A stretch of 64,000 nt of DNA from Pseudohaliea rubra DSM 19751 (GTDB lineage: Bacteria > Pseudomonadota > Gammaproteobacteria > Pseudomonadales > Halieaceae): NCBI RefSeq assembly GCF_000764025.1, contig NZ_KN234746.1, positions 62,001 to 126,000 of the forward strand, read 5' to 3'. Below are positions 17,210 to 27,201 of this stretch, in pieces (position 1 is the stretch's first letter; each line of letters starts with the position of its first letter). The translations under genes were made by a program, and so were the position numbers. The notes under the pieces are model-generated. The model saw nothing but the letters and a program-made list of their open reading frames with translations, was not told where the DNA came from and did no database searches.

Positions 17210-18727
17210 ATGCGCAAGCGCCTCTTCATTTACCTCTGCCTGCTCCTGTGCCTGCCGATGCTGGCCCGTGCCGACGCGGAGGAAACCGCTCCGGCCATTC
17301 CCGAACCCACCGCCTTCGTGAGCGAACACCGGGGCTCTTTCAACGGCAGTTCCGTACATTATGTGGCGCGGGCAGGCGAGACCTACCTGCGCGACGCCGA
17401 CGGCGAACCCACCGCCAGTATCTTCAGCTTTGCCTATGTGGCGAAGGACGCCAGTGAGGACCGCCCGGTCACCTTCGTCTGGAACGGCGGACCAGGCTCG
17501 GCGTCCCTCTGGCTGCACATGGGCACCTTCGGACCCAAGCGGGTGGTAGTACCAAGCGATGCGAGCCATCCCGGGGTGCCGCCCTATCCCATCGTCGACG
17601 CCACGGAAACGATCCTCGACCTGACGGACCTCGTATTCATCGACCCCGTGGGCACCGGCTATTCCCGCGCTCTCGGCGACCACGAAGGTACAGAGTTCTG
17701 GGGCCTGACCGAAGATGCGGCGTCCATGGCGGAATTCATCAAACGCTGGCTGGCCGCCAACGGCCGCTGGAATTCGCCGAAGTTCATCCTCGGCGAAAGC
17801 TTCGGCACGACCCGGGCGGCCCTCGTGGCTAAACTGCTCGAAGATGAGTATCGCGTCGCCCTGAACGGCCTGGTGATGATCTCCCAGGCGCTGGACTACG
17901 CCGGCTCAACCCCCTATGTACGCGACAACCTGATTTCCTACGTGACCTACGTGCCGACTATGGCAGCCACCGCCTGGCACCACGGCAAGGTGGACCGCGA
18001 GGGTACAGACCTGGAGACCTTCCTGCAGGATGCCCGGAACTTCGCCGTGGATGAACTGCTGCCGGCCCTGTTCCGCGGCAACGCACTGGATCCACAGGCG
18101 CGCAGGCGGGTCCGCGACGGCCTGGTGCGCTTCACCGGCCTTTCTCCGACCTATGTGGAGCGTGCGAACCTGCGCATCAACGGCCGCCGCTTCGCTGCAG
18201 AGCTGCTCCGCGATCAGGGGCTGACCGTGGGCCTGAATGACGCACGCTACCTCGGCGACCCGGTGGACCACCTCGCCGACCGCCCCGGCGCGGACGCTGC
18301 CGGCGATGCGTTCTCCGCCGCCTTTACCGGCGCGCTGCTGAGCTACCTCCACGGAGAGCTGGGGATCACCTGGGAGCGGCCCTATCTTTCCCCGGCGGAC
18401 CCGGAGCTCAGCAAGCACTGGAACTGGAGCCGGAAAGCTCCCGGTGATACCTGGGAGCCGGCCTGGGTGAACACAGCGCACGATCTGGCCCGCGCCCTCG
18501 AGGCCAATCCGGCGCTACGGGTGTTTGTCGCCGGCGGCTACCACGACCTGGTCACACCCTTCTTCGACGCGGAATTCACCCTGCGACGCCACGGCATCGG
18601 CGCCGAGCGGGTGGATTTCCGCTTCTACCACGGCGGGCACATGATGTACGTGCACGAGCCGTCCCGGCAGGCACTGCTCGGTGATGTGCGTAGCTTTATG
18701 AACGGGGCGCTGCGCGGGGCGCCATAA
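17210..18727 (+). CDS. S10 family serine carboxypeptidase, exported
   Basis: 505 residues with a signal peptide ('MRKRLFIYLCLLLCLPMLARA'). 'VTFVWNGGPGSASLWLH' is the oxyanion-hole signature, 'ILGESFGTTRAALVA' holds the nucleophile Ser, 'GGYHDLVTP' the Asp and 'HGGHMMYVHEPS' the His of the catalytic triad. S10 peptidases trim C-terminal residues from peptides; bacterial members are usually periplasmic. AAAGGA precedes the ATG. It probably supports growth on peptides; neighbours give no stronger clue. Confidence 0.9.
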   Translation: MRKRLFIYLCLLLCLPMLARADAEETAPAIPEPTAFVSEHRGSFNGSSVHYVARAGETYLRDADGEPTASIFSFAYVAKDASEDRPVTFVWNGGPGSASLWLHMGTFGPKRVVVPSDASHPGVPPYPIVDATETILDLTDLVFIDPVGTGYSRALGDHEGTEFWGLTEDAASMAEFIKRWLAANGRWNSPKFILGESFGTTRAALVAKLLEDEYRVALNGLVMISQALDYAGSTPYVRDNLISYVTYVPTMAATAWHHGKVDREGTDLETFLQDARNFAVDELLPALFRGNALDPQARRRVRDGLVRFTGLSPTYVERANLRINGRRFAAELLRDQGLTVGLNDARYLGDPVDHLADRPGADAAGDAFSAAFTGALLSYLHGELGITWERPYLSPADPELSKHWNWSRKAPGDTWEPAWVNTAHDLARALEANPALRVFVAGGYHDLVTPFFDAEFTLRRHGIGAERVDFRFYHGGHMMYVHEPSRQALLGDVRSFMNGALRGAP

Positions 18728-19027: not shown

Positions 19028-19045
19028 ATCAAACAACTGCTTGGT
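19028..19045. promoter_or_regulatory. Candidate TetR-type operator, copy 1
   Basis: An 18-base site ending GCTTGGT, aligned to ATCAAACAACTGCTTGGT. It shares its right arm and several left-arm positions with the sites at 22612-22629 and 27177-27194. It lies between the CDGSH gene and the TonB-receptor gene, about 90 bases upstream of the latter. Assignment to the TetR protein at 21479 is inference. Confidence 0.45.
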
Positions 19046-19132
19046 AGGTTGGAATCGCGCGGCCCGGCCGCGCGCCCGGTGCCCCGGGGCACCACGGCTG
19101 ATAACCATAATGCGAAAGCCAGGAGAACTACG

Positions 19133-21430
19133 ATGAAGTACCCGCACTCCACCCGTCGTCCGCTGTGCCAGGCGATTCTCCTCGCCTCGCTCACAGCTGT
19201 GCCCGCAGCCGCGCTTGCCCAGAATCCCGCAGGAGAGGCAGGTTTTGCCGGCATTGAGGAAGTGATCGTGACCGCGCGAAAGCGCGAGGAAAGCGTCCAG
19301 AACACCCCCGTCTCCATGGTCGCCGTCGGCGCCGAGGGCTTGAAGGCACGCTCCGTCGACAGCTTCGGGCGCCTTGGCGAGGTTGCACCGAACATCGAGA
19401 TCAACGGCGGCATTCCGAACGGTGGCGGCAGTGCCACGCAGATTTTCATCCGCGGTATCGGTCAGGATGATTACTCCTTCCCGAACGAGCCGGGCGTCGG
19501 CCTGTACATCGACGACGTTTATATCTCCCGCAGTGCAGCGGCAGATTTCGGCTTCATGGATATCGAGCGCATCGAGATCCTGCGTGGCCCGCAGGGCACC
19601 CTCTACGGCAGGAACACCATCGGCGGGGCAGTGAAGATCGTCACCCGCAAGCCCGAGGGCAGCAACAGCGGCGAAGTGGGCGTGACCGTGGGCCGCTATG
19701 ATCGCCTCGATGTTTATGCCAACTATGATATGGCTCTCACGGACCGGCTTGCGGCCAAGTTTGCCGTTGCCACCTTCAACCGGGATGGCCTCGGCAGCAA
19801 CCTTATCGGCCAGGACCTGGGCGAAGACGACGAGATCGACGCCCGGGCGAGCTTCCGCTGGGATGCCAGCGATACGCTGGAGGTGCTGTTCACCGCAGAC
19901 TACATGAAGCAGGAGCAGGCCGGGCCCGCAGGCTCCATGGTGCGTTTTGATGCTCTGGACCCGGGAACCGACTCGCTGATCAATGACCTGCTGGCACCGC
20001 CGGTGGTCGAAGAGTTCAACCTGCAACCACCCCTCGATCGCTATGGTGAGGCGTGGGTGAAGACCCTGGATGACTGCAACAAGTGTGTCTACGACTCGGG
20101 CGGCACCGTGGAAACCCGGGACGACGGCGAGATCTGGGGCGCAGCACTGACCATCAACAAGACCATCGGTGACAGCCTTTTCCGTTCCATTACCGCCGTG
20201 CGCGACTACGACATCGATATCCGCCGGGACTCGGAACACACCCCCTTCGATATCGTCCAGGTCGACAACCCGGAAACCTTCACTCAGTACACCCAGGAAT
20301 TCCAGTGGAACGGCACGGGTATGGACGGCAGGCTTGATTACGTGCTCGGCGTCTTCGGCCTCTACGAGGACGGCGACAGCGAACTGTTCGCACCCTTGCT
20401 GTCCGGGCTCTTCGACGTGACCGGCGGTCTCGCAGACAACACGGCGTTCATCACCACGGAGTACGAGGCCTACTCCCTCGCCGCCTACGCCGAAGCCACC
20501 TACGCCCTCACGGACCGGCTCGCCCTGACCGTTGGCGGGCGCTTCACGCACGACGACAAGGAATACATCTATGGCCTCTCCAGGCCTGAGTCGGGCCAGG
20601 TGCCGCTACCCCCGGAGCGGCTGGCAGACGACTGGACCGAGTTCCTGCCCAAGGCGGGGCTGGAATACCAGCAGACAGACGACCTGCTCTGGTACGCCAA
20701 TGCGTCGCGGGGCTACAAGGCCGGCGGCTATAACTCCCGGGCCCTGTCGGGCATTGCGCCGAAGGCATACGATCCGGAATTCGTTGACGTCTATGAAGTC
20801 GGCTTCAAATCAAGTTGGGCAGACAATACCTTTACTCTCAACGGCGCACTGTTCTACAACGAGTACACGGACATTCAGCTCCTGGCAGTACTTGATCTCG
20901 GCGGCGGCAACGTCGAAACAGTCATTGAAAACGCGGGCGAAGCCACAATTGTCGGTGGCGAACTCGAGTTCCAGTGGATGCCTACGGCGAACTGGAACTT
21001 CTCCGGTGGTATCGGCCTCCTGGACGCCGAGTACGACAGCGTCGGCGCATCCGCAGCGGGCGCGGGCATCGCGGAAAGTAACGAGCTCATCAATGCACCG
21101 GAACTCAGCGCCAACCTCTCCGGGGAGTACCGCGTTCCGCTGGCCAGCGGCGACCTCGCATTGCGCGCGGACATGATCTATCGCGACGACCAGTACCGCG
21201 ATGCCGTGAACACGCCGGAGCTGCAGGCTGAAGCCTATACGCTGTGGAACGGTCGGGTGACCTGGACCTCCGCCAGCGAACGCTGGGAGGTGGCAGGCTT
21301 CGTCACTAACATCACGGACGAGATCTTTGTGACCAATGGCGTATCCGTCCTCGGCCTTGGCTATGTCGAGGCCTACTACAGCCGGCCGCGGGAATGGGGC
21401 CTCTCGGTCACTATGAACTTCGGTAGTTGA
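19133..21430 (+). CDS. TonB-dependent receptor
   Basis: 765 residues. The ATG at 19133 follows AGGAG and a signal peptide ends near 'AAALAQ'. The TonB-box/plug entry 'IEEVIVTARKREESVQNTP' and the plug motif 'IERIEILRGPQGTLYGRNT' are typical of the large receptor group found in marine gammaproteobacteria and sphingomonads that take up hydrophobic or carbohydrate ligands rather than siderophores. The barrel ends 'LSVTMNFGS'. A strong terminator follows. The TetR gene lies convergent behind it. Its neighbours (CoA ligase, thiolase, P450, cupin) suggest an organic carbon source as ligand (inference). Confidence 0.9.
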   Translation: MKYPHSTRRPLCQAILLASLTAVPAAALAQNPAGEAGFAGIEEVIVTARKREESVQNTPVSMVAVGAEGLKARSVDSFGRLGEVAPNIEINGGIPNGGGSATQIFIRGIGQDDYSFPNEPGVGLYIDDVYISRSAAADFGFMDIERIEILRGPQGTLYGRNTIGGAVKIVTRKPEGSNSGEVGVTVGRYDRLDVYANYDMALTDRLAAKFAVATFNRDGLGSNLIGQDLGEDDEIDARASFRWDASDTLEVLFTADYMKQEQAGPAGSMVRFDALDPGTDSLINDLLAPPVVEEFNLQPPLDRYGEAWVKTLDDCNKCVYDSGGTVETRDDGEIWGAALTINKTIGDSLFRSITAVRDYDIDIRRDSEHTPFDIVQVDNPETFTQYTQEFQWNGTGMDGRLDYVLGVFGLYEDGDSELFAPLLSGLFDVTGGLADNTAFITTEYEAYSLAAYAEATYALTDRLALTVGGRFTHDDKEYIYGLSRPESGQVPLPPERLADDWTEFLPKAGLEYQQTDDLLWYANASRGYKAGGYNSRALSGIAPKAYDPEFVDVYEVGFKSSWADNTFTLNGALFYNEYTDIQLLAVLDLGGGNVETVIENAGEATIVGGELEFQWMPTANWNFSGGIGLLDAEYDSVGASAAGAGIAESNELINAPELSANLSGEYRVPLASGDLALRADMIYRDDQYRDAVNTPELQAEAYTLWNGRVTWTSASERWEVAGFVTNITDEIFVTNGVSVLGLGYVEAYYSRPREWGLSVTMNFGS

Positions 21431-21449: not shown

Positions 21450-21479
21450 GGCGCCACCCGAAGGGGTGGCGCCTTTTTT
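21450..21479 (+). terminator. Rho-independent terminator
   Basis: A perfect 10-base stem GGCGCCACCC/GGGTGGCGCC with loop GAAG is followed by six T residues. It ends the TonB-receptor transcript and touches the stop of the convergent TetR gene. Confidence 0.9.
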
Positions 21480-22081
21480 CATGCACCAGGATCCAGCTGA
21501 AGCCGAAACGCGTCGACGATCCCGCCGGCGATGCTGGCGGGGCTCTCCGAGCCACCGGGCTGATACCAGGTGGGCGTCCAGTTGAGCGCGCCAAGAAGGG
21601 AGAGGCGAAACAGGCGCGGGCTCACGGTAGCCGGGAGGGGCAGCGCTGAAACCAGCGTGCGGAAGATGTCCTCGTAGCCTTCCCGCTGCTGCAGCAGCGT
21701 AGCGCGAACGTCACCATCAAAATGGCTGGGGAACTGCGGCGTGATCACCTGCGAAAAGGGACTGGGGCCGAGCAGTACCTCAAGGTGAGCGCAACAGGCC
21801 GCCGCCATGCGCTCCCAGGGCGGGGTGCCGGCCGCGGCAAGCGCGCCCTCCACCGCCTCCGTCACCTGCGCAACGCCGCGGGCATGGGCTTCAAGCAGGA
21901 GTTCTTCCTTCGAGGCAAAGTGATAGTAAAGGGACCCGGAAAGGATACCGACCTGCTGGGCGATATCGCGGATCGATGTGGCCGCATAACCCTTGCTGGC
22001 AAACAGCGCAGCCGCTGCCTCAAGCACATCATCACGACGATTACTGCGGTCACTGAGTGCCGCCTTTGCCTTCGGTGCCAC
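21479..22081 (-). CDS. TetR/AcrR family transcriptional regulator
   Basis: 200 residues from a GTG at 22081, which has AGAGG upstream and gives the normal TetR length; the longer open frame would run into the cupin gene. The HTH region reads 'VLEAAAALFASKGYAATSIRDIAQQVGILSGSLYYHFASKEELL' in two overlapping parts, the classic TetR DNA-binding pattern. The C-terminal helical domain would bind an effector, in this context perhaps an acyl-CoA or aromatic compound. The gene follows the cupin gene on the same strand with a 22-base gap. It is the best candidate for the shared ACCAAG...CTTGGT operator seen at three promoters in this region. Confidence 0.85.
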   Translation of the reverse strand: MAPKAKAALSDRSNRRDDVLEAAAALFASKGYAATSIRDIAQQVGILSGSLYYHFASKEELLLEAHARGVAQVTEAVEGALAAAGTPPWERMAAACCAHLEVLLGPSPFSQVITPQFPSHFDGDVRATLLQQREGYEDIFRTLVSALPLPATVSPRLFRLSLLGALNWTPTWYQPGGSESPASIAGGIVDAFRLQLDPGA

Positions 22082-22103
22082 CTTCAGCCTCTGGAGGACG
22101 GGG

Positions 22104-22550
22104 TCAGGGCTGATAATACTGCTTGAAGAAGTCCAGGGTAAGCGTGTCGACCACGTTATCGTCCTCATCGAGGATGTCGAGCATCTCCGGCCCCGTACCC
22201 TGGAAGCTCGCATAGACCGTCATGCCCTGCTCCGACGAATAGGGCGTGTGGGCGCTGCCCGGCGGCTCGTAGGAGAACGTACCCGGGAAATGCATTTCAT
22301 CCCCCTCGCGGTAGCCCCAGAGCCCCTCAAGAGTCAGGGCCACCGCCGTACAACGGTGGTTGTGCTTTGCGAATTCCTTGTGCGGATCCTGGCGGAAAAG
22401 AAAATCCACCCTGTGGCGCTTCTCATCCACGGTAAGCACCTTGATGTAGTTTCCAGGCTGCCCATCGACTTCCTGCCAGTCCAGCAGATTGCTGTTGACG
22501 TTCTCGATCTCGCCGAAGCTCGTGCGCAGGGTCTTTTCCAGTACGTTCAT
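22104..22550 (-). CDS. Cupin-domain protein (2,4'-dihydroxyacetophenone dioxygenase-like)
   Basis: 148 residues. The start at ATG 22550 is chosen over an open extension because that extension crosses the operator and promoter region. 'KHNHRCTAVALTLEGLWGYREGD' gives the first cupin motif (His ligands) and 'SYEPPGSAHTPYS' the second. This pattern resembles the single-domain cupins annotated as 2,4'-dihydroxyacetophenone dioxygenase family or ChrR-like proteins. A metal-dependent ring-cleaving or C-C cleaving reaction is possible but not shown. It is divergent from the cytochrome/propeller lipoprotein gene. Confidence 0.7.
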   Translation of the reverse strand: MNVLEKTLRTSFGEIENVNSNLLDWQEVDGQPGNYIKVLTVDEKRHRVDFLFRQDPHKEFAKHNHRCTAVALTLEGLWGYREGDEMHFPGTFSYEPPGSAHTPYSSEQGMTVYASFQGTGPEMLDILDEDDNVVDTLTLDFFKQYYQP

Positions 22551-22611: not shown

Positions 22612-22629
22612 AACAACCAATCGCTTGGT
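22612..22629. promoter_or_regulatory. Candidate TetR-type operator, copy 2
   Basis: AACAACCAATCGCTTGGT, sharing the ATCGCTTGGT right half with the site at 27177-27194. It lies 62 bases upstream of the cupin start and 67 bases upstream of the lipoprotein start, in the divergent promoter region. Confidence 0.5.
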
Positions 22630-22696
22630 AGCCTGAGTATAACCTGATATATTTCCAGCCCTCTACCTAGGCCAACGGGACCGAGGACGCGACACA

Positions 22697-24325
22697 ATGA
22701 TAAAACGCATCCGCCCGGGCTGCCGCAGTGCCATCGTCGGCGCAGCCCTTGCCCTTTTCATGACCGGCTGTGAGCGAAACCCCACAACCGGGCCGGTCAG
22801 CACACCCAGTGCTGCAAACACACCCGCAGCGCTCATCGTCACGACGGCGGACGGAAGCCCGCTTGCCGGGGCGATGGTCAGCGCTGCCCTCGATGCGCAG
22901 CGAACAGTCACCCGCTTTACAGATACCGACGGCACACTGACGCTGGCTTCCCTGCCCGCTGACGTGGCATCGATCACCGTTCGCTACCCCGGTCTGGCCA
23001 GTCGCACCCTGGCACCGGTTCCCGGGAAGGTAGCGTTGGCGCCAGACCCGGCCTTTCTCCGCACCCTTCCAAGCAGCCGCTGGCTGTCCCTGCTCCCGGA
23101 GGGCGAGCGGAAACGCGAATTCACCGTGAATTGCGGCACCTGCCACGAGCTCAGCCACGATCGGATCATGATCGATGGCCGGCCGCGGACGAAAGACGAA
23201 TGGCTCGCGGCTATTGCCATGATGCGCGCCATGGATGCCTACGAGGTGATCCCGCCGGATTTCGACGATGCTGCCTACGCGGCCTGGCTCGCCGACAGCC
23301 TGAGCGCGGAACGGATCGCCACCCTTACGCCGGCACCGCGGGAAAACGCCGCAGCGCTTGGCGCCATAGAAATCACCGAGTATGCCCTGCCGCAGGATGA
23401 TTCCCTGCCCCATGATCTGGTCATCGGACCTGCCGGGCGCATCTGGATCACGGCCTTTTTTTACGACGAGCTCTGGGCCCTCGATCCCGCTACGGGCGCC
23501 ATCGAGACCTTCTCGGCGGACGACCGCCCGGCAGTAAACGCACAGCCGAGGGCCCTGAAATTCGACGACGACGGTACCCTCTGGGTGGTAAACGGCGGCA
23601 CGGAGGCTGTACTGCGCTTCGATCCGGCGAGCGGCGACTACGAAGAGATTGCCGTCGGCATGTATGCCCACAGCCTGGATATCGACCCCGCCGGCGACAT
23701 CTGGGTCAATGACTATTTCGCCGCTGAAGAGCGTATCGCCCGGGTGGCGGCAGCAGACAGCACGGTAACAACCATCGCCGTCCCCCCTGCCCGGCGCCCC
23801 GCCAGCGAAGGCCTGCCCCTGCCTTACGGGCTGCAGGTAGACGGCGCTGGGCGCCTCTACAGCACGCAGCTGGCGGCCAATACGCTGGTGCGCTACGACA
23901 CCCGCAGCGGCGCAGGCACCTTGTTCGAAATGCCCGCGGCGAACAGCGGACCGCGCCGCCCGGGCCTCGATAGCGCTGACGGCCTGTGGATACCGGAGTT
24001 CAACACCGGCTACCTGGCCTACTTCGATCCGGACCGGGAGCGCTTCGACCGTATCCGCCTGGGTTCCTCTTCCCTGGGGCTTTACGACGTGGAGGTGAAC
24101 CAGGCGAACGATGACATCTGGACCACCGGATCCCTGGCCTCGACACTCATCCGCTACCGGCACGGGGACGGCTCGATCCTCTCCGTACCGCTGCCGACGG
24201 AGCCGGCCTACACGCGCCACATTGCCGTCGACGAAGCGACCGGTGCCGTCTGGACGGCTTACTCCTCCCTGCCGGCGGCAACGCCGCGTGTAGCTCGCCT
24301 GCGCTTCCTCGACCAGAAAGATTAA
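22697..24325 (+). CDS. Lipoprotein with cytochrome c motif and virginiamycin B lyase-like beta-propeller
   Basis: 542 residues in four parts: a lipobox signal peptide ('LALFMTGC'), a carboxypeptidase-regulatory-like domain (about 45-115), a single haem-binding motif 'CGTCHE' near 147 in 'FTVNCGTCHELSHDRI', and a C-terminal six-blade-type propeller with repeated 'D..G.lWV/iT' units ('GPAGRIWITAF', 'DDDGTLWVVNGG', 'DPAGDIWVNDYF'). The propeller matches the streptogramin lyase/SMP-30-like class. An envelope-anchored haem protein with a sensor or lyase-like propeller is implied. Its reaction is unknown; antibiotic lyase activity should not be assumed. It is convergent with the thiolase gene. Confidence 0.8.
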   Translation: MIKRIRPGCRSAIVGAALALFMTGCERNPTTGPVSTPSAANTPAALIVTTADGSPLAGAMVSAALDAQRTVTRFTDTDGTLTLASLPADVASITVRYPGLASRTLAPVPGKVALAPDPAFLRTLPSSRWLSLLPEGERKREFTVNCGTCHELSHDRIMIDGRPRTKDEWLAAIAMMRAMDAYEVIPPDFDDAAYAAWLADSLSAERIATLTPAPRENAAALGAIEITEYALPQDDSLPHDLVIGPAGRIWITAFFYDELWALDPATGAIETFSADDRPAVNAQPRALKFDDDGTLWVVNGGTEAVLRFDPASGDYEEIAVGMYAHSLDIDPAGDIWVNDYFAAEERIARVAAADSTVTTIAVPPARRPASEGLPLPYGLQVDGAGRLYSTQLAANTLVRYDTRSGAGTLFEMPAANSGPRRPGLDSADGLWIPEFNTGYLAYFDPDRERFDRIRLGSSSLGLYDVEVNQANDDIWTTGSLASTLIRYRHGDGSILSVPLPTEPAYTRHIAVDEATGAVWTAYSSLPAATPRVARLRFLDQKD

Positions 24326-24345
24326 GCGGGCCGCTCAGGCCCGCT
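24325..24345. terminator. Hairpin between convergent genes
   Basis: An 8-base stem AGCGGGCC/GGCCCGCT with loop GCTCA spans the stop codons of the propeller lipoprotein (+) and thiolase (-) genes. It may terminate both directions; only the minus side is followed by a T-rich stretch. Confidence 0.4.
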
Positions 24346-25585
24346 GCAGAAGCACCACCGAGCAGGCCGCCTCGTCAAAACCGACGACACCACCGCCGTT
24401 TTCCGCCAGAGCCGTGTGCGCACCGGGCACCTGACGGGGGCCGGCCTCACCCCGGAGCTGTTCCGTGAGCTCCGCGATCATCGACAGGCCCGTAGCCCCC
24501 ACAGGGTGGCCCTTGGAGACGAGCCCGCCGGAGGTGTTGATCGGCAGGCGCCCACCGAGGGTCGTTGCGCCGCTTTCAACAAAGGAGCCGCCCTGCCCCT
24601 CCTCGCAGAAGCCGAGCATCTCGGCCTGGTAGAGCTCGCAGAAGGCAGTGGCGTCGTGGACTTCGGCAACGTCGATGGCCTCCGGGCCCAAACCGGCCTG
24701 GCGGTAGGCTTTTTGTGCCGCCACGCGACTCAAACCGGACTCATCGAGGGCGCGGTACTTGCCGCCGGAGAGTGCCGTTGCCGCCACCCGTACTGCGCGC
24801 TCGCGCACCGTGGTGGGGAGTTCGCGCAGCCGCCGGGCCGAAACCAGCAGCGCCCCTGCGGCACCGTCACCAATGGGTGCACACATGGCGCGGGTCAGCG
24901 GCCAGGATACCTCACGGTCGGCAAGGACCTCCGCCACAGTCATTTCGAACTGGTACTGTGCCCGGGGATTGAGAGCCCCGTGTCCGTGGTTCTTTGCCGC
25001 AGCTGCTGCGATCTGCGCCTGGGTCGTTCCGTAGCGCTTCATGTGGTAGCAGGCCTGCATGGCATAGGTATCCATGAAGATCGAGCGATCCGGACCCGGG
25101 TCAAAGGTCTTGCCCGCCTCGGCCCCGGCGGCGGCGTAATAGGCCCGCCACTCATCCTTGTCATACTGGTCTATCCCGCCCTCGAAGAGCCGCGCGGACT
25201 GCGCCGGCGCGTCCGGATAGAAGGTCTTCTCCACACCCAGCGCCAGTACCGTATCCGCCGTACCCGCGGCGATATCCTTCCAGGCGCCGTTCAGAGCCAT
25301 GGACGCGGTAGCACAACCGCCCTCGACATTGACTACGGGCACACGCTCCGGGAATAAACCCTCCCGCACCAGCGGCGTCAGGCAGACCTGGCCACGGATG
25401 CTGCCCTGCTCTTCCACCCACATGCCGCAGTTACCGAACCAGCAGCTCTCAATGGCAGCGCCGTCTTCCAGCCCCGCATCCGCCAGCACCCCGAGATAGG
25501 CCTCCCGGGCCAGGTCCTTGACGGTAGCATCGGGACGCTTGCCGAAGGCCGTGCTGAAAACCCCGATCAGATAGATATCGCTCAC
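24335..25585 (-). CDS. Thiolase family protein (SCP-x/lipid-transfer type)
   Basis: 416 residues, GTG start overlapping the stop of the CoA ligase (GTGA). The nucleophilic Cys is in 'VEGGCATASMAL' (Cys about 91); the C-terminal half carries 'EVHDATAFCELYQAEML' and 'INTSGGLVSKGHPVGATG', which includes the general-base His and the last catalytic region. This spacing is that of the SCP-x-like thiolases, common in sterol and isoprenoid side-chain degradation, which release propionyl- or acetyl-CoA. A catabolic role with the upstream CoA ligase is inferred. Confidence 0.88.
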   Translation of the reverse strand: MSDIYLIGVFSTAFGKRPDATVKDLAREAYLGVLADAGLEDGAAIESCWFGNCGMWVEEQGSIRGQVCLTPLVREGLFPERVPVVNVEGGCATASMALNGAWKDIAAGTADTVLALGVEKTFYPDAPAQSARLFEGGIDQYDKDEWRAYYAAAGAEAGKTFDPGPDRSIFMDTYAMQACYHMKRYGTTQAQIAAAAAKNHGHGALNPRAQYQFEMTVAEVLADREVSWPLTRAMCAPIGDGAAGALLVSARRLRELPTTVRERAVRVAATALSGGKYRALDESGLSRVAAQKAYRQAGLGPEAIDVAEVHDATAFCELYQAEMLGFCEEGQGGSFVESGATTLGGRLPINTSGGLVSKGHPVGATGLSMIAELTEQLRGEAGPRQVPGAHTALAENGGGVVGFDEAACSVVLLQRA

Positions 25586-27132
25586 GAGGCCTCCCAGTAC
25601 GGCGTCCGCAGCTCACGCTTGATAACCTTGCCCAGCGCGTTGCGCGGAAAATCCTCGCGCAATTCCACCGCCTTGAGACGCTGCGCCTTGGCAAGCTGCT
25701 CATTCGCCCAGACCAGCAGCGCATCGGGGTCAACGGCCGCACCGGCCCGGGGGATAACCAACGCGAGGGGAGTCTCCCCCCACTTCGGGTCCGGAATGCC
25801 GATGACGGTGACATCGGAGACGTCCGGATGAGCGCCGACCACCTCTTCGATATCTTTTGGAAAAACGTTGAAACCGCCGGAAATAATCATGTCTTTCTTG
25901 CGGTCGAGGATATAGAGAAAACCGTCCCGGTCCACCTTGCCGATGTCGCCGCTGCGCAGAAAGGTGCGCCCGCGCTCATCGCGCCAGATCGATGCCTCCG
26001 TCTCCGCTTCCCGGTTATGGTAGTGCTTCATCAGCCCGCCGCCGTAGCCCACGATCTCGCCGGGCTCGCCAGCTGGCAGCTCCCGACCCTCGTCGTCGAT
26101 GATGCGCAGATCGAAGCCGATCACCGGCGTGCCCACGGAGCCGCGCTTGTGCTGCTGCTCCGGGCGGCAGATAGTGGCGAAGCCCTCGGAAAACCCGTAT
26201 AGCTCGAAGAGGCCGGGGCCCAGGCGCTCGAGAACCGCTTCCTTCGTGTCCTGCCGCAGCGGCGAGCCCGCTGAGAGCATGTAGCGTAGGGACGAGAGAT
26301 CTGCCTCCGGCAGCGCGGGACTCTCAAGGACACCGATGTATTGCGTCGGCACCATAAAAGTATGGGTAACCCCTTCCCGGGCCACCAGCTCGAGGAAGCT
26401 CTCAGGCGAGAAGCTCTCCATAACCACCACCGTGGCGCCGACGAAGAGCGGCGGCAGCAGCATGAACCAGGTCCCGTTGCTGTAGAGCGAGGTAGTCGCC
26501 AGGGCAACGCTTTCGTGGTCCATGCGCAATTCAAGGGCATTGGAGTAAGACCAGTGCTGCCGCGCCCGATGGGTCTGCACGATGCCCTTGGGCGTGCCCG
26601 TGGTGCCTGACGAATAGATGATATTGAAATCATCACCGAGGTCATAGCGAACCGGCGGCTCGCCCTCGTCCGCTCCCGCCAGCCAGCCGGCGAGCGGCTG
26701 CCACGGGTCGGGGGAGACGCCGGCGCAGAGCAGAAGCCGGTGGTCGCCATCGGCAAGGTCCGCGAGCGCCTCATCGGCCAGGGCCCGGGTCGCATCGCTG
26801 GCGAAAAGAACAGATGCACCCGAGTCCGCCAGGAGCGTTGCGACCTGGGTCGCGGTCAGCATGGTGCTGATAGGCACTACGCAGGCCCCTGACTTCATGA
26901 CCCCGAGCAGCACGACGGCGGTGTCGACGGCATTGTTCATCAACACCGCCACCTTCGAAGGTTTGCCGGCGCCGGCAGCGAGCAGTGCGTTGGCCACCTG
27001 GTTGCAGCGGCGGTTCAGCTCACCCCAGCTGAGCCGCTCGTCACCGCAGACCAGAGCCGTGCTGGCGCCGCGGAACCGTGCATGACTCGCCCAGAGCTCG
27101 GGCAGAAATACCTGGGTATCATCCAGGGCCAT
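25582..27132 (-). CDS. Acyl-CoA synthetase / AMP-dependent ligase
   Basis: 516 residues. The ATG at 27132 is used; the open frame upstream crosses the promoter. The P-loop-like 'IIYSSGTTGTPKGI' (A3), 'YGFSEG' (A5), 'RSGDIGKVDRDGFLYILDRKKD' region (A7-A8) and the C-terminal 'NALGKVIKREL' with the catalytic Lys identify the ANL superfamily. It activates a carboxylic acid to its CoA ester in the cytoplasm. Together with the overlapping thiolase it would form a two-gene degradation unit divergent from the P450. The acid is unknown. Confidence 0.88.
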   Translation of the reverse strand: MALDDTQVFLPELWASHARFRGASTALVCGDERLSWGELNRRCNQVANALLAAGAGKPSKVAVLMNNAVDTAVVLLGVMKSGACVVPISTMLTATQVATLLADSGASVLFASDATRALADEALADLADGDHRLLLCAGVSPDPWQPLAGWLAGADEGEPPVRYDLGDDFNIIYSSGTTGTPKGIVQTHRARQHWSYSNALELRMDHESVALATTSLYSNGTWFMLLPPLFVGATVVVMESFSPESFLELVAREGVTHTFMVPTQYIGVLESPALPEADLSSLRYMLSAGSPLRQDTKEAVLERLGPGLFELYGFSEGFATICRPEQQHKRGSVGTPVIGFDLRIIDDEGRELPAGEPGEIVGYGGGLMKHYHNREAETEASIWRDERGRTFLRSGDIGKVDRDGFLYILDRKKDMIISGGFNVFPKDIEEVVGAHPDVSDVTVIGIPDPKWGETPLALVIPRAGAAVDPDALLVWANEQLAKAQRLKAVELREDFPRNALGKVIKRELRTPYWEAS

Positions 27133-27173: not shown

Positions 27174-27201
27174 CATACCAAGTGATCGCTTGGTTGGTAT
27201 G
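27174..27201. promoter_or_regulatory. Candidate TetR-type operator, copy 3 (nested palindrome)
   Basis: The inner site 27177-27194 is an imperfect palindrome with arms ACCAAG and CTTGGT. An outer inverted repeat CATACCAA (27174-27181) and TTGGTATG (27194-27201) is nested around it. It sits between the divergent CoA ligase (start 27132) and P450 (start 27252) genes, where a repressor could control both. Confidence 0.6.

Follow-up and report, generated by a model that had tools for sequence, protein, structure and literature searches.

A lipoprotein of Pseudohaliea rubra DSM 19751 combines a carboxypeptidase regulatory-like domain, a likely haem-c domain of the SorB/QHNDH type and a seven-bladed propeller of the Vgb fold in a single chain. 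This architecture (lipobox, CarboxypepD_reg, CxxCH, propeller) is real, conserved and recurrent. The gene is located in a 64,000-nt stretch of contig NZ_KN234746.1 (positions 62,001–126,000), the whole of which is called the window here. A palindromic operator suggests that it is probably co-regulated with the uptake and degradation of one compound. The protein may serve as a lipid-anchored electron-transfer oxidoreductase module of that single catabolic pathway, a reading to which we give about as much belief as doubt.

Table 1. The haem-c/propeller lipoprotein gene, its parts and its surroundings (window coordinates).
Feature	Coordinates	Strand	Basis or remark
TonB-dependent receptor, probable regulon member	19133–21430	+	NCBIfam best match below cut-off, 178.8 of 223.5 bits
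TetR-family regulator	21479–22213	-	NCBIfam below cut-off; conserved in place; true start probably inside the listed ORF
ChrR-like cupin, divergent from lipoprotein gene	22104–22550	-	Pfam Cupin_7, 48.9 bits, cut-off 27
Haem-c/propeller lipoprotein gene	22697–24325	+	single open frame, 542 aa
Signal peptide with lipobox, lipidated Cys25	22697–22771	+	rule-based prediction
CarboxypepD_reg beta-sandwich domain	22829–23038	+	Pfam PF13620; strands at 45–114 in model
Haem-c domain, residues 115–222	23039–23362	+	profile A3 against QHNDH/SorB; hhalign A2 against A4
CGTCH haem-c attachment motif, residues 146–150	23132–23146	+	12/12 covering A1 rows
Met176, presumed distal haem ligand	23222–23224	+	12/12 A1 rows; 44/44 CxxCH rows
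Seven-bladed Vgb-fold propeller	23363–24313	+	Pfam, superposition, ring conservation
Thiolase, lipid-transfer/SCP-x-like kind	24335–25585	-	NCBIfam best below cut-off, 280 of 420 bits
AMP-forming acyl-CoA ligase	25582–27132	-	NCBIfam best 402 of 476 bits
Cytochrome P450	27252–28490	+	solved P450s at 7e-80 and weaker
Palindromic operator, ~86 bp before TonB-receptor start	19028–19047	+	matrix score 21.6
Palindromic operator, between cupin and lipoprotein gene	22612–22631	+	top matrix site in window, score 25.3
Palindromic operator, between acyl-CoA ligase and P450 genes	27177–27196	+	matrix score 17.0

The domain order that a preliminary description had read from the letters of the DNA is borne out by Pfam, an AlphaFold2 model and a lipobox rule. 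The predicted lipidated cysteine lies within the sequence ...LFMTGC, according to an old PROSITE-type rule. The rule is satisfied by 7 of the 11 rows of alignment A1 that have an N-terminus (window counted), where the starts of the relatives are the analyst's choice, the start in L030 is without a start codon, and contig ends truncate L027 and L032. The CarboxypepD_reg domain is matched at residues 48–107 (36.4 bits, cut-off 32.3), and CGTCH sits between this domain and the propeller, in a helical segment. Structure prediction, which had been suggested as a check, yielded a model with a pLDDT of 86 and a pTM of 0.85 that is weak only at residues 1–41 and in a few short stretches. On the opposite strand, a frame of 517 aa (22667–24220) is mechanically listed; no grounds were found to call it a gene.

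The same description had considered the combination of haem and propeller unusual. The fusion is instead the common form of the sampled family and no rarity of the window, and it recurs in loci labelled Gammaproteobacteria, Alphaproteobacteria and others. A scan of the genome collection returned 13 close loci. Identity is highest in a Halieaceae MAG (79%) and lowest in Eilatimonas milleporae (48%), and MAGs labelled Woeseiaceae, Nevskia, Myxococcota and others are also among the loci. Wider searches gave a match in 29 of 58 relatives and, under a stricter limit, in 16 of 274 class genomes. The fetched family, which is counted by members whose locus was retrieved rather than by all matches and from which copies were removed, comprises 45 proteins with CxxCH (window counted) and 11 without it. 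The latter are L032 and L033, in which contig ends cut off the CxxCH segment, and nine propeller-only proteins of 338–385 aa. In the tree, a branch with an SH-aLRT support of 100 separates the close relatives from the other members; the close relatives include L027 and L028, which are without a P450. Viral contigs gave zero matches to the lipoprotein. Six plasmid records were matched, all at 24–28% identity and none reaching 80% coverage; two of these relatives, matched over the propeller only, are annotated “lyase”. The neighborhoods of plasmid relatives H4 and H5 held no functional clue, and the H1 record is without annotation.

The haem-c motif claimed earlier is likely to be genuine. CxxCH is conserved in 11/11 close relatives that reach this segment, and C146, C149, H150, W169 and M176 are retained in all 12 A1 rows spanning these positions (window counted). 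A CxxCH that varies among homologs, which had been named earlier as a refuting outcome, was looked for and not seen. Downstream of CxxCH, a W-x6-M motif is present in 45/45 family members with CxxCH (window counted; the copies L034, L038 and L002 and one L033 piece were left out), its Trp lying 19–62 residues past the first Cys. Shuffled segments contained W-x6-M in 4.3 cases on average and in 11 at most (200 shuffles), a comparison that is a guide and gives no probability because the sequences are kin. Since it is kept in the close relatives and joined to W-x6-M throughout, CxxCH is not accidental.

Profile comparisons place the domain among solved haem-c domains. Alignment A3 holds 28 of the 45 CxxCH members, picked by the analyst for diversity and normal spacing, with identities down to 19%; it is invariant at both Cys and at the His, Trp and Met, and nowhere else. 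Against the PDB, the A3 profile matched quinohaemoprotein amine dehydrogenase (QHNDH; 1jmx, 2.6e-8), SorB (2blf, 1.3e-7) and again QHNDH (1jju, 4.8e-6), followed by a dihaem cytochrome c (3.2e-5) and many c-type cytochromes. The close-family haem-domain profile A2 stayed below threshold in the PDB (best 0.064). Profile A4, which was made from six short haem-propeller relatives, reached 2.6e-5 for SorB, whose W-x6-M residues Trp and Met fall in register, and only 0.41 for QHNDH; hhalign related A2 to A4 with a probability of 96. The haem domain of the window misses the Pfam cytochrome cut-off (PF13442, 13.6 bits versus 27), and two close-family haem domains scanned alongside it had zero matches to Pfam cytochrome models. 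PF13442 was matched by 12 of the 28 A3 members at E ≤1 (best 0.015). The isolated domain, modeled without haem, gave three Foldseek matches in the PDB at E ≤10, none of them significant, and its structural comparison with 20 chains reached Z ≤4.1, with a weak Z of 2.9 for 1jmx_A. The protein displays several of the features by which a c-type cytochrome is recognized, namely CxxCH, an export signal, a genome with CcmF (the only Ccm component recorded there) and a conserved Met. Because CxxCH and W-x6-M are conserved, the A3 profile is kin to known haem-c domains and CcmF is encoded in the genome, covalent haem attachment to CGTCH is likely, and Met176 presumably ligates the haem.

The propeller shares the Vgb fold but, on this reading, would not share the Vgb site. 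Residues 225–522 match the Pfam family Vgb_lyase (PF24684, 64.9 bits, cut-off 50), and in a structural superposition residues 218–538 align with streptogramin B lyase 2qc5 at a Z of 40 (295/298 residues aligned, rmsd 1.7, 20% identity), the next-best propellers lying at Z about 33. PF01011, the propeller of PQQ dehydrogenases, is absent among the nine Pfam families that match the lipoprotein at E ≤1. The propeller carries a ring of polar residues (H239, R285, H325, Y377, R420, R421, Y463, R507 and H508), which was defined as the residue 11 before the Trp of each blade or its counterpart (12 before for Y463) and is flanked by R421 and R507. In a set of 54 rows, Y377, R421, Y463 and R507 are invariant whether or not a row has CxxCH, every row has H or R at positions 239 and 285, and 50 have H at position 325; H508 is retained in just 16 of the 44 rows with CxxCH. 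The 10 rows without CxxCH in this set include the contig-cut L032, and the set omits L031 and the remaining L033 piece, which are both cut, in addition to the sequences left out of the W-x6-M count. The four invariant residues are equally kept in the nine propeller-only homologs, so that the role of the propeller need not be redox. Their conservation suggests that the ring forms a ligand pocket.

By alignment register, the Vgb counterparts of the ring include Y18, Y102, V186 and H228 in 2z2n and H270 in 2qc5. Vgb His270, whose alanine mutant is inactive according to the title of entry 2z2p, corresponds to H508 by blade register, but Vgb His228, presumably the other half of the catalytic pair, corresponds to Y463, both assignments being of register and not of residue-level structural alignment. 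R420, R421 and R507 take the register of V186 and G187 (2z2n) and of P269 (as read in 2qc5). The curated NCBIfam models VgbA and VgbB score the lipoprotein at 34.7 and 37.1 bits, against a cut-off of 600. An oxidase, a sensor and a lyase had been named as possible roles; an oxidase or other redox component is plausible, and a lyase is unsupported because the conserved ring positions hold other residues than in Vgb and because the VgbA/VgbB scores fall far short.

The lipoprotein gene is embedded in the catabolic cluster that had been noted earlier. The gene order is TonB receptor (+), TetR (-), cupin (-), lipoprotein (+), thiolase (-), ligase (-) and P450 (+), and GSTs also belong to the cluster. 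Gene names follow the best NCBIfam matches, most of which are below the curated cut-off, except for the cupin (Pfam) and the P450 (solved structures); compared with the PDB, P450 and cupin display general kinship only. No periplasmic dehydrogenase was recognized in the cluster. A survey of the neighborhoods of homologs, likewise suggested earlier, found TetR, lipoprotein gene, thiolase, ligase and P450 together in L022, L023, L025 and L026, with the cupin in L022 and L023 and the receptor in L022, L025 and L026. L021, L024 and L031 retain receptor, TetR, cupin and lipoprotein gene, and in L032 and L033 the P450 is the next gene after the lipoprotein gene. L027 and L028 have none of the cluster neighbors, and L029 and L030 have only a distant P450-like frame. 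Downstream of the P450, L022 encodes an acyl-CoA dehydrogenase (Pfam), and L023 has a frame of like size there. An exported S10-family serine carboxypeptidase-like protein (17210–18727), named by reading its sequence and without an NCBIfam match, adjoins the TonB receptor gene and is kept in L021.

A conserved palindrome was seen in the promoter sequences. A matrix trained on the four sites that precede the gene in L021, L022, L023 and L031, with the window excluded, ranks the three operators of Table 1 as the top three sites in the 64 kb, and the best site in 20 simulated windows scored 14.9. The four training sites score high by construction because the matrix was built from them. Non-training sites were found in L021 and L031 (receptor), L022 (ligase/P450 and a second cupin), L023 and L026 (ligase/P450) and L024 (receptor and cupin/lipoprotein gene). 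The matrix is weak in L025 (15.3 and 13.3) and absent or weak in L027–L030, L032 and L033 (best 9.3–13.7). A hand-made 20-base consensus has five matches in the window versus 0.47 expected, two of which are one palindrome at 317–337 outside the cluster. By count, the 15-base core is not beyond chance, with 7 found versus 3.7 expected and 8 of 100 shuffles reaching 7. A consensus fitted to the three sites has exactly these three exact matches in the 3.2-Mb genome; the match of the sites themselves is by construction, the lack of other exact matches is not. At ≤2 mismatches it occurs in 12 places of the genome versus 2 for the control, namely each of the three operators, two of which count again on the reverse strand, plus one place inside the lipoprotein gene and six elsewhere.

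From its place, the TetR regulator probably binds this operator. As the operator is common to the lipoprotein, receptor and ligase/P450 promoters and recurs in relatives, co-regulation of these genes is probable. The operator is a new finding and a direct handle on the pathway: once the TetR ligand is found, the substrate is likely known.

In the wider family, the setting is a different one. A PQQ alcohol dehydrogenase-like gene directly adjoins the haem-propeller gene in 10 of 20 regions, which are the analyst's non-random picks among search matches. Two genomes each contribute a pair of regions, one region (L078) is sister to the window, and 7 of the 10 positives come from one close tree group. 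The ten positives are L060–L067, L069 and L072. In nine of them both genes are on the same strand, L064 being divergent, and 7 of the 10 have haem-propeller genes next to PQQ alcohol dehydrogenase-like genes with two in a row. The PQQ assignment is based on Pfam for four proteins of three loci and on phmmer at E ≤1e-15 for the others. L008 and L014, outside the 20, likewise have a PQQ dehydrogenase-like neighbor. This adjacency ties the wider family to envelope oxidations. PQQ-dehydrogenase queries found nothing at E up to 1e-15 in the loci of the 13 close relatives. The P. rubra genome contains one full-length PF01011 match (G000:C38:11368–13152) and several lesser ones, on other contigs. Synthesis of PQQ by its own genome for a partner enzyme was rejected despite these proteins, as pqqE is absent over the cut-off (best 50 bits versus 381); P. 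rubra may scavenge PQQ.

Among characterized systems, several resemble parts of the lipoprotein. Solved Vgb chains (2z2n, 2z2p and 2qc5) have the same seven-bladed propeller of PF24684 but are single propellers of ~300 residues whose ring residues differ by register. QHNDH (1jmx and 1jju) has a homologous haem-c domain by profile, and its haem subunit works with a seven-bladed propeller; in QHNDH, however, the propeller forms a chain of its own and catalysis lies with the CTQ subunit, whereas the P. rubra lipoprotein is one chain. SorB of sulfite:cytochrome c oxidoreductase (2blf) is a small haem-c domain with the same W-x6-M in the A4 alignment but forms a separate subunit, and its partner is a molybdenum enzyme. 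The cd1 nitrite reductase NirS is a single chain with a haem-c domain followed by a propeller, as in the lipoprotein, but its propeller is eight-bladed and holds haem d1, for which no site is claimed here. The known haem-propeller enzymes each represent their own chemistry (nitrite reductase, amine dehydrogenase).

The alkylating enzyme CylK has a Vgb-like propeller that has taken on new chemistry and is joined to a second domain, which binds Ca2+ and is not a haem domain (PMC8916777). A Poribacteria paper (PMC5087111) and a fibrillar adhesin paper (PMC9210967) have no bearing on the haem-propeller family. The literature search found no recognized description of a proteobacterial family in which a Vgb-type propeller is combined with a haem of the SorB/QHNDH type. 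Haem c plus propeller is a known kind of protein, of which the SorB/QHNDH-type haem on a Vgb-type propeller is a widespread, little-studied variant.

In the proposed mechanism, the TonB receptor would import the substrate into the periplasm, where the propeller would stand clear of the membrane on its lipid anchor and Ig-like domain. The conserved polar ring would bind the imported substrate, an early oxidation product or the oxidizing enzyme, and the His/Met haem c would accept electrons and feed the respiratory chain with them. Degradation of the compound in the cytosol would then fall to P450, CoA ligase and thiolase, with the TetR repressor switching on the lipoprotein together with the receptor, P450, acyl-CoA ligase and thiolase. 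The sequence itself shows the export signal, the haem motif with its homology, the propeller fold, the conservation and the common promoter site; electron transfer, the binding or oxidation of a substrate and the direction of electron flow are inferred. A bolder version, which seems possible but doubtful to us, is a new class of single-chain haem-c oxidoreductases. In such enzymes the Vgb-fold ring (H/R...H/R...H...Y...RR...Y...R) would be the active site, oxidize envelope substrates and send the electrons out via the fused SorB/QHNDH-type haem, and repeated recruitment would have brought them into P450 pathways in the clade of the window and into PQQ pathways in a related clade.

The lipoprotein may also be a mere electron acceptor whose propeller docks a separate dehydrogenase encoded elsewhere in the genome, an explanation that we find somewhat improbable yet worth serious attention. 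The PQQ dehydrogenase-like genes next to half of the 20 chosen loci, the full-length and lesser PF01011 proteins of P. rubra and the likeness of the haem domain to SorB, an electron-accepting subunit, all speak for a docked partner. Close to the 13 nearest relatives, however, no such dehydrogenase was found, pqqE over the cut-off is missing from the genome, and the invariant polar ring, which the propeller-only homologs also possess, has more the look of a ligand pocket than of a docking face. That the ring is kept in homologs without the haem motif is equally what a Vgb-type C–O lyase or other non-redox enzyme would predict, with the haem structural or regulatory. The fold similarity to streptogramin B lyase and the position of H508 at the register of Vgb His270 point the same way. 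The replacement of Vgb His228 by Tyr463, the arginines at V186, G187 and P269, the scarcity of H508 among CxxCH rows and scores nowhere near the VgbA/VgbB cut-offs nevertheless make a lyase decidedly unlikely.

A similarly low probability is given to a role as an envelope sensor, acting by its haem or by ligand binding, or as a lipoprotein that binds the substrate. The divergent position of the gene from the cupin–TetR pair, beside the common operator, would suit a sensor, but a shared operator fits any regulon member, no Pfam signaling domain exceeds its cut-off among the nine matches, and the cytosolic TetR already accounts for regulation; moreover, His/Met haem ligation normally signifies electron transfer. 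Least probable of all, and one that would surprise us, is a protein that binds no haem and uses CxxCH as a metal or structural motif. The Pfam cytochrome models below cut-off and a fold search of the domain without any cytochrome are in line with it, but it has to be set against the invariant CxxCH and Met, the profile kinship to solved haem-c domains, the export signal and CcmF.

Further details were noted in individual loci. L029 (CAMATU010000033.1), titled as a Klebsiella pneumoniae MAG, an organism label that looks doubtful, carries its haem-propeller gene together with a BphC-like dioxygenase and the P450-like frame. In the sister genome, a short haem-propeller relative of 427 aa (L021:2368–3648, minus strand) is encoded between GST and S10-peptidase genes; its counterpart was not found in the P. 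rubra genome. In L025 (862–2547) and L026 (8188–9978), a second, divergent haem-propeller protein with CTICH as its motif is encoded in tandem beside the first.
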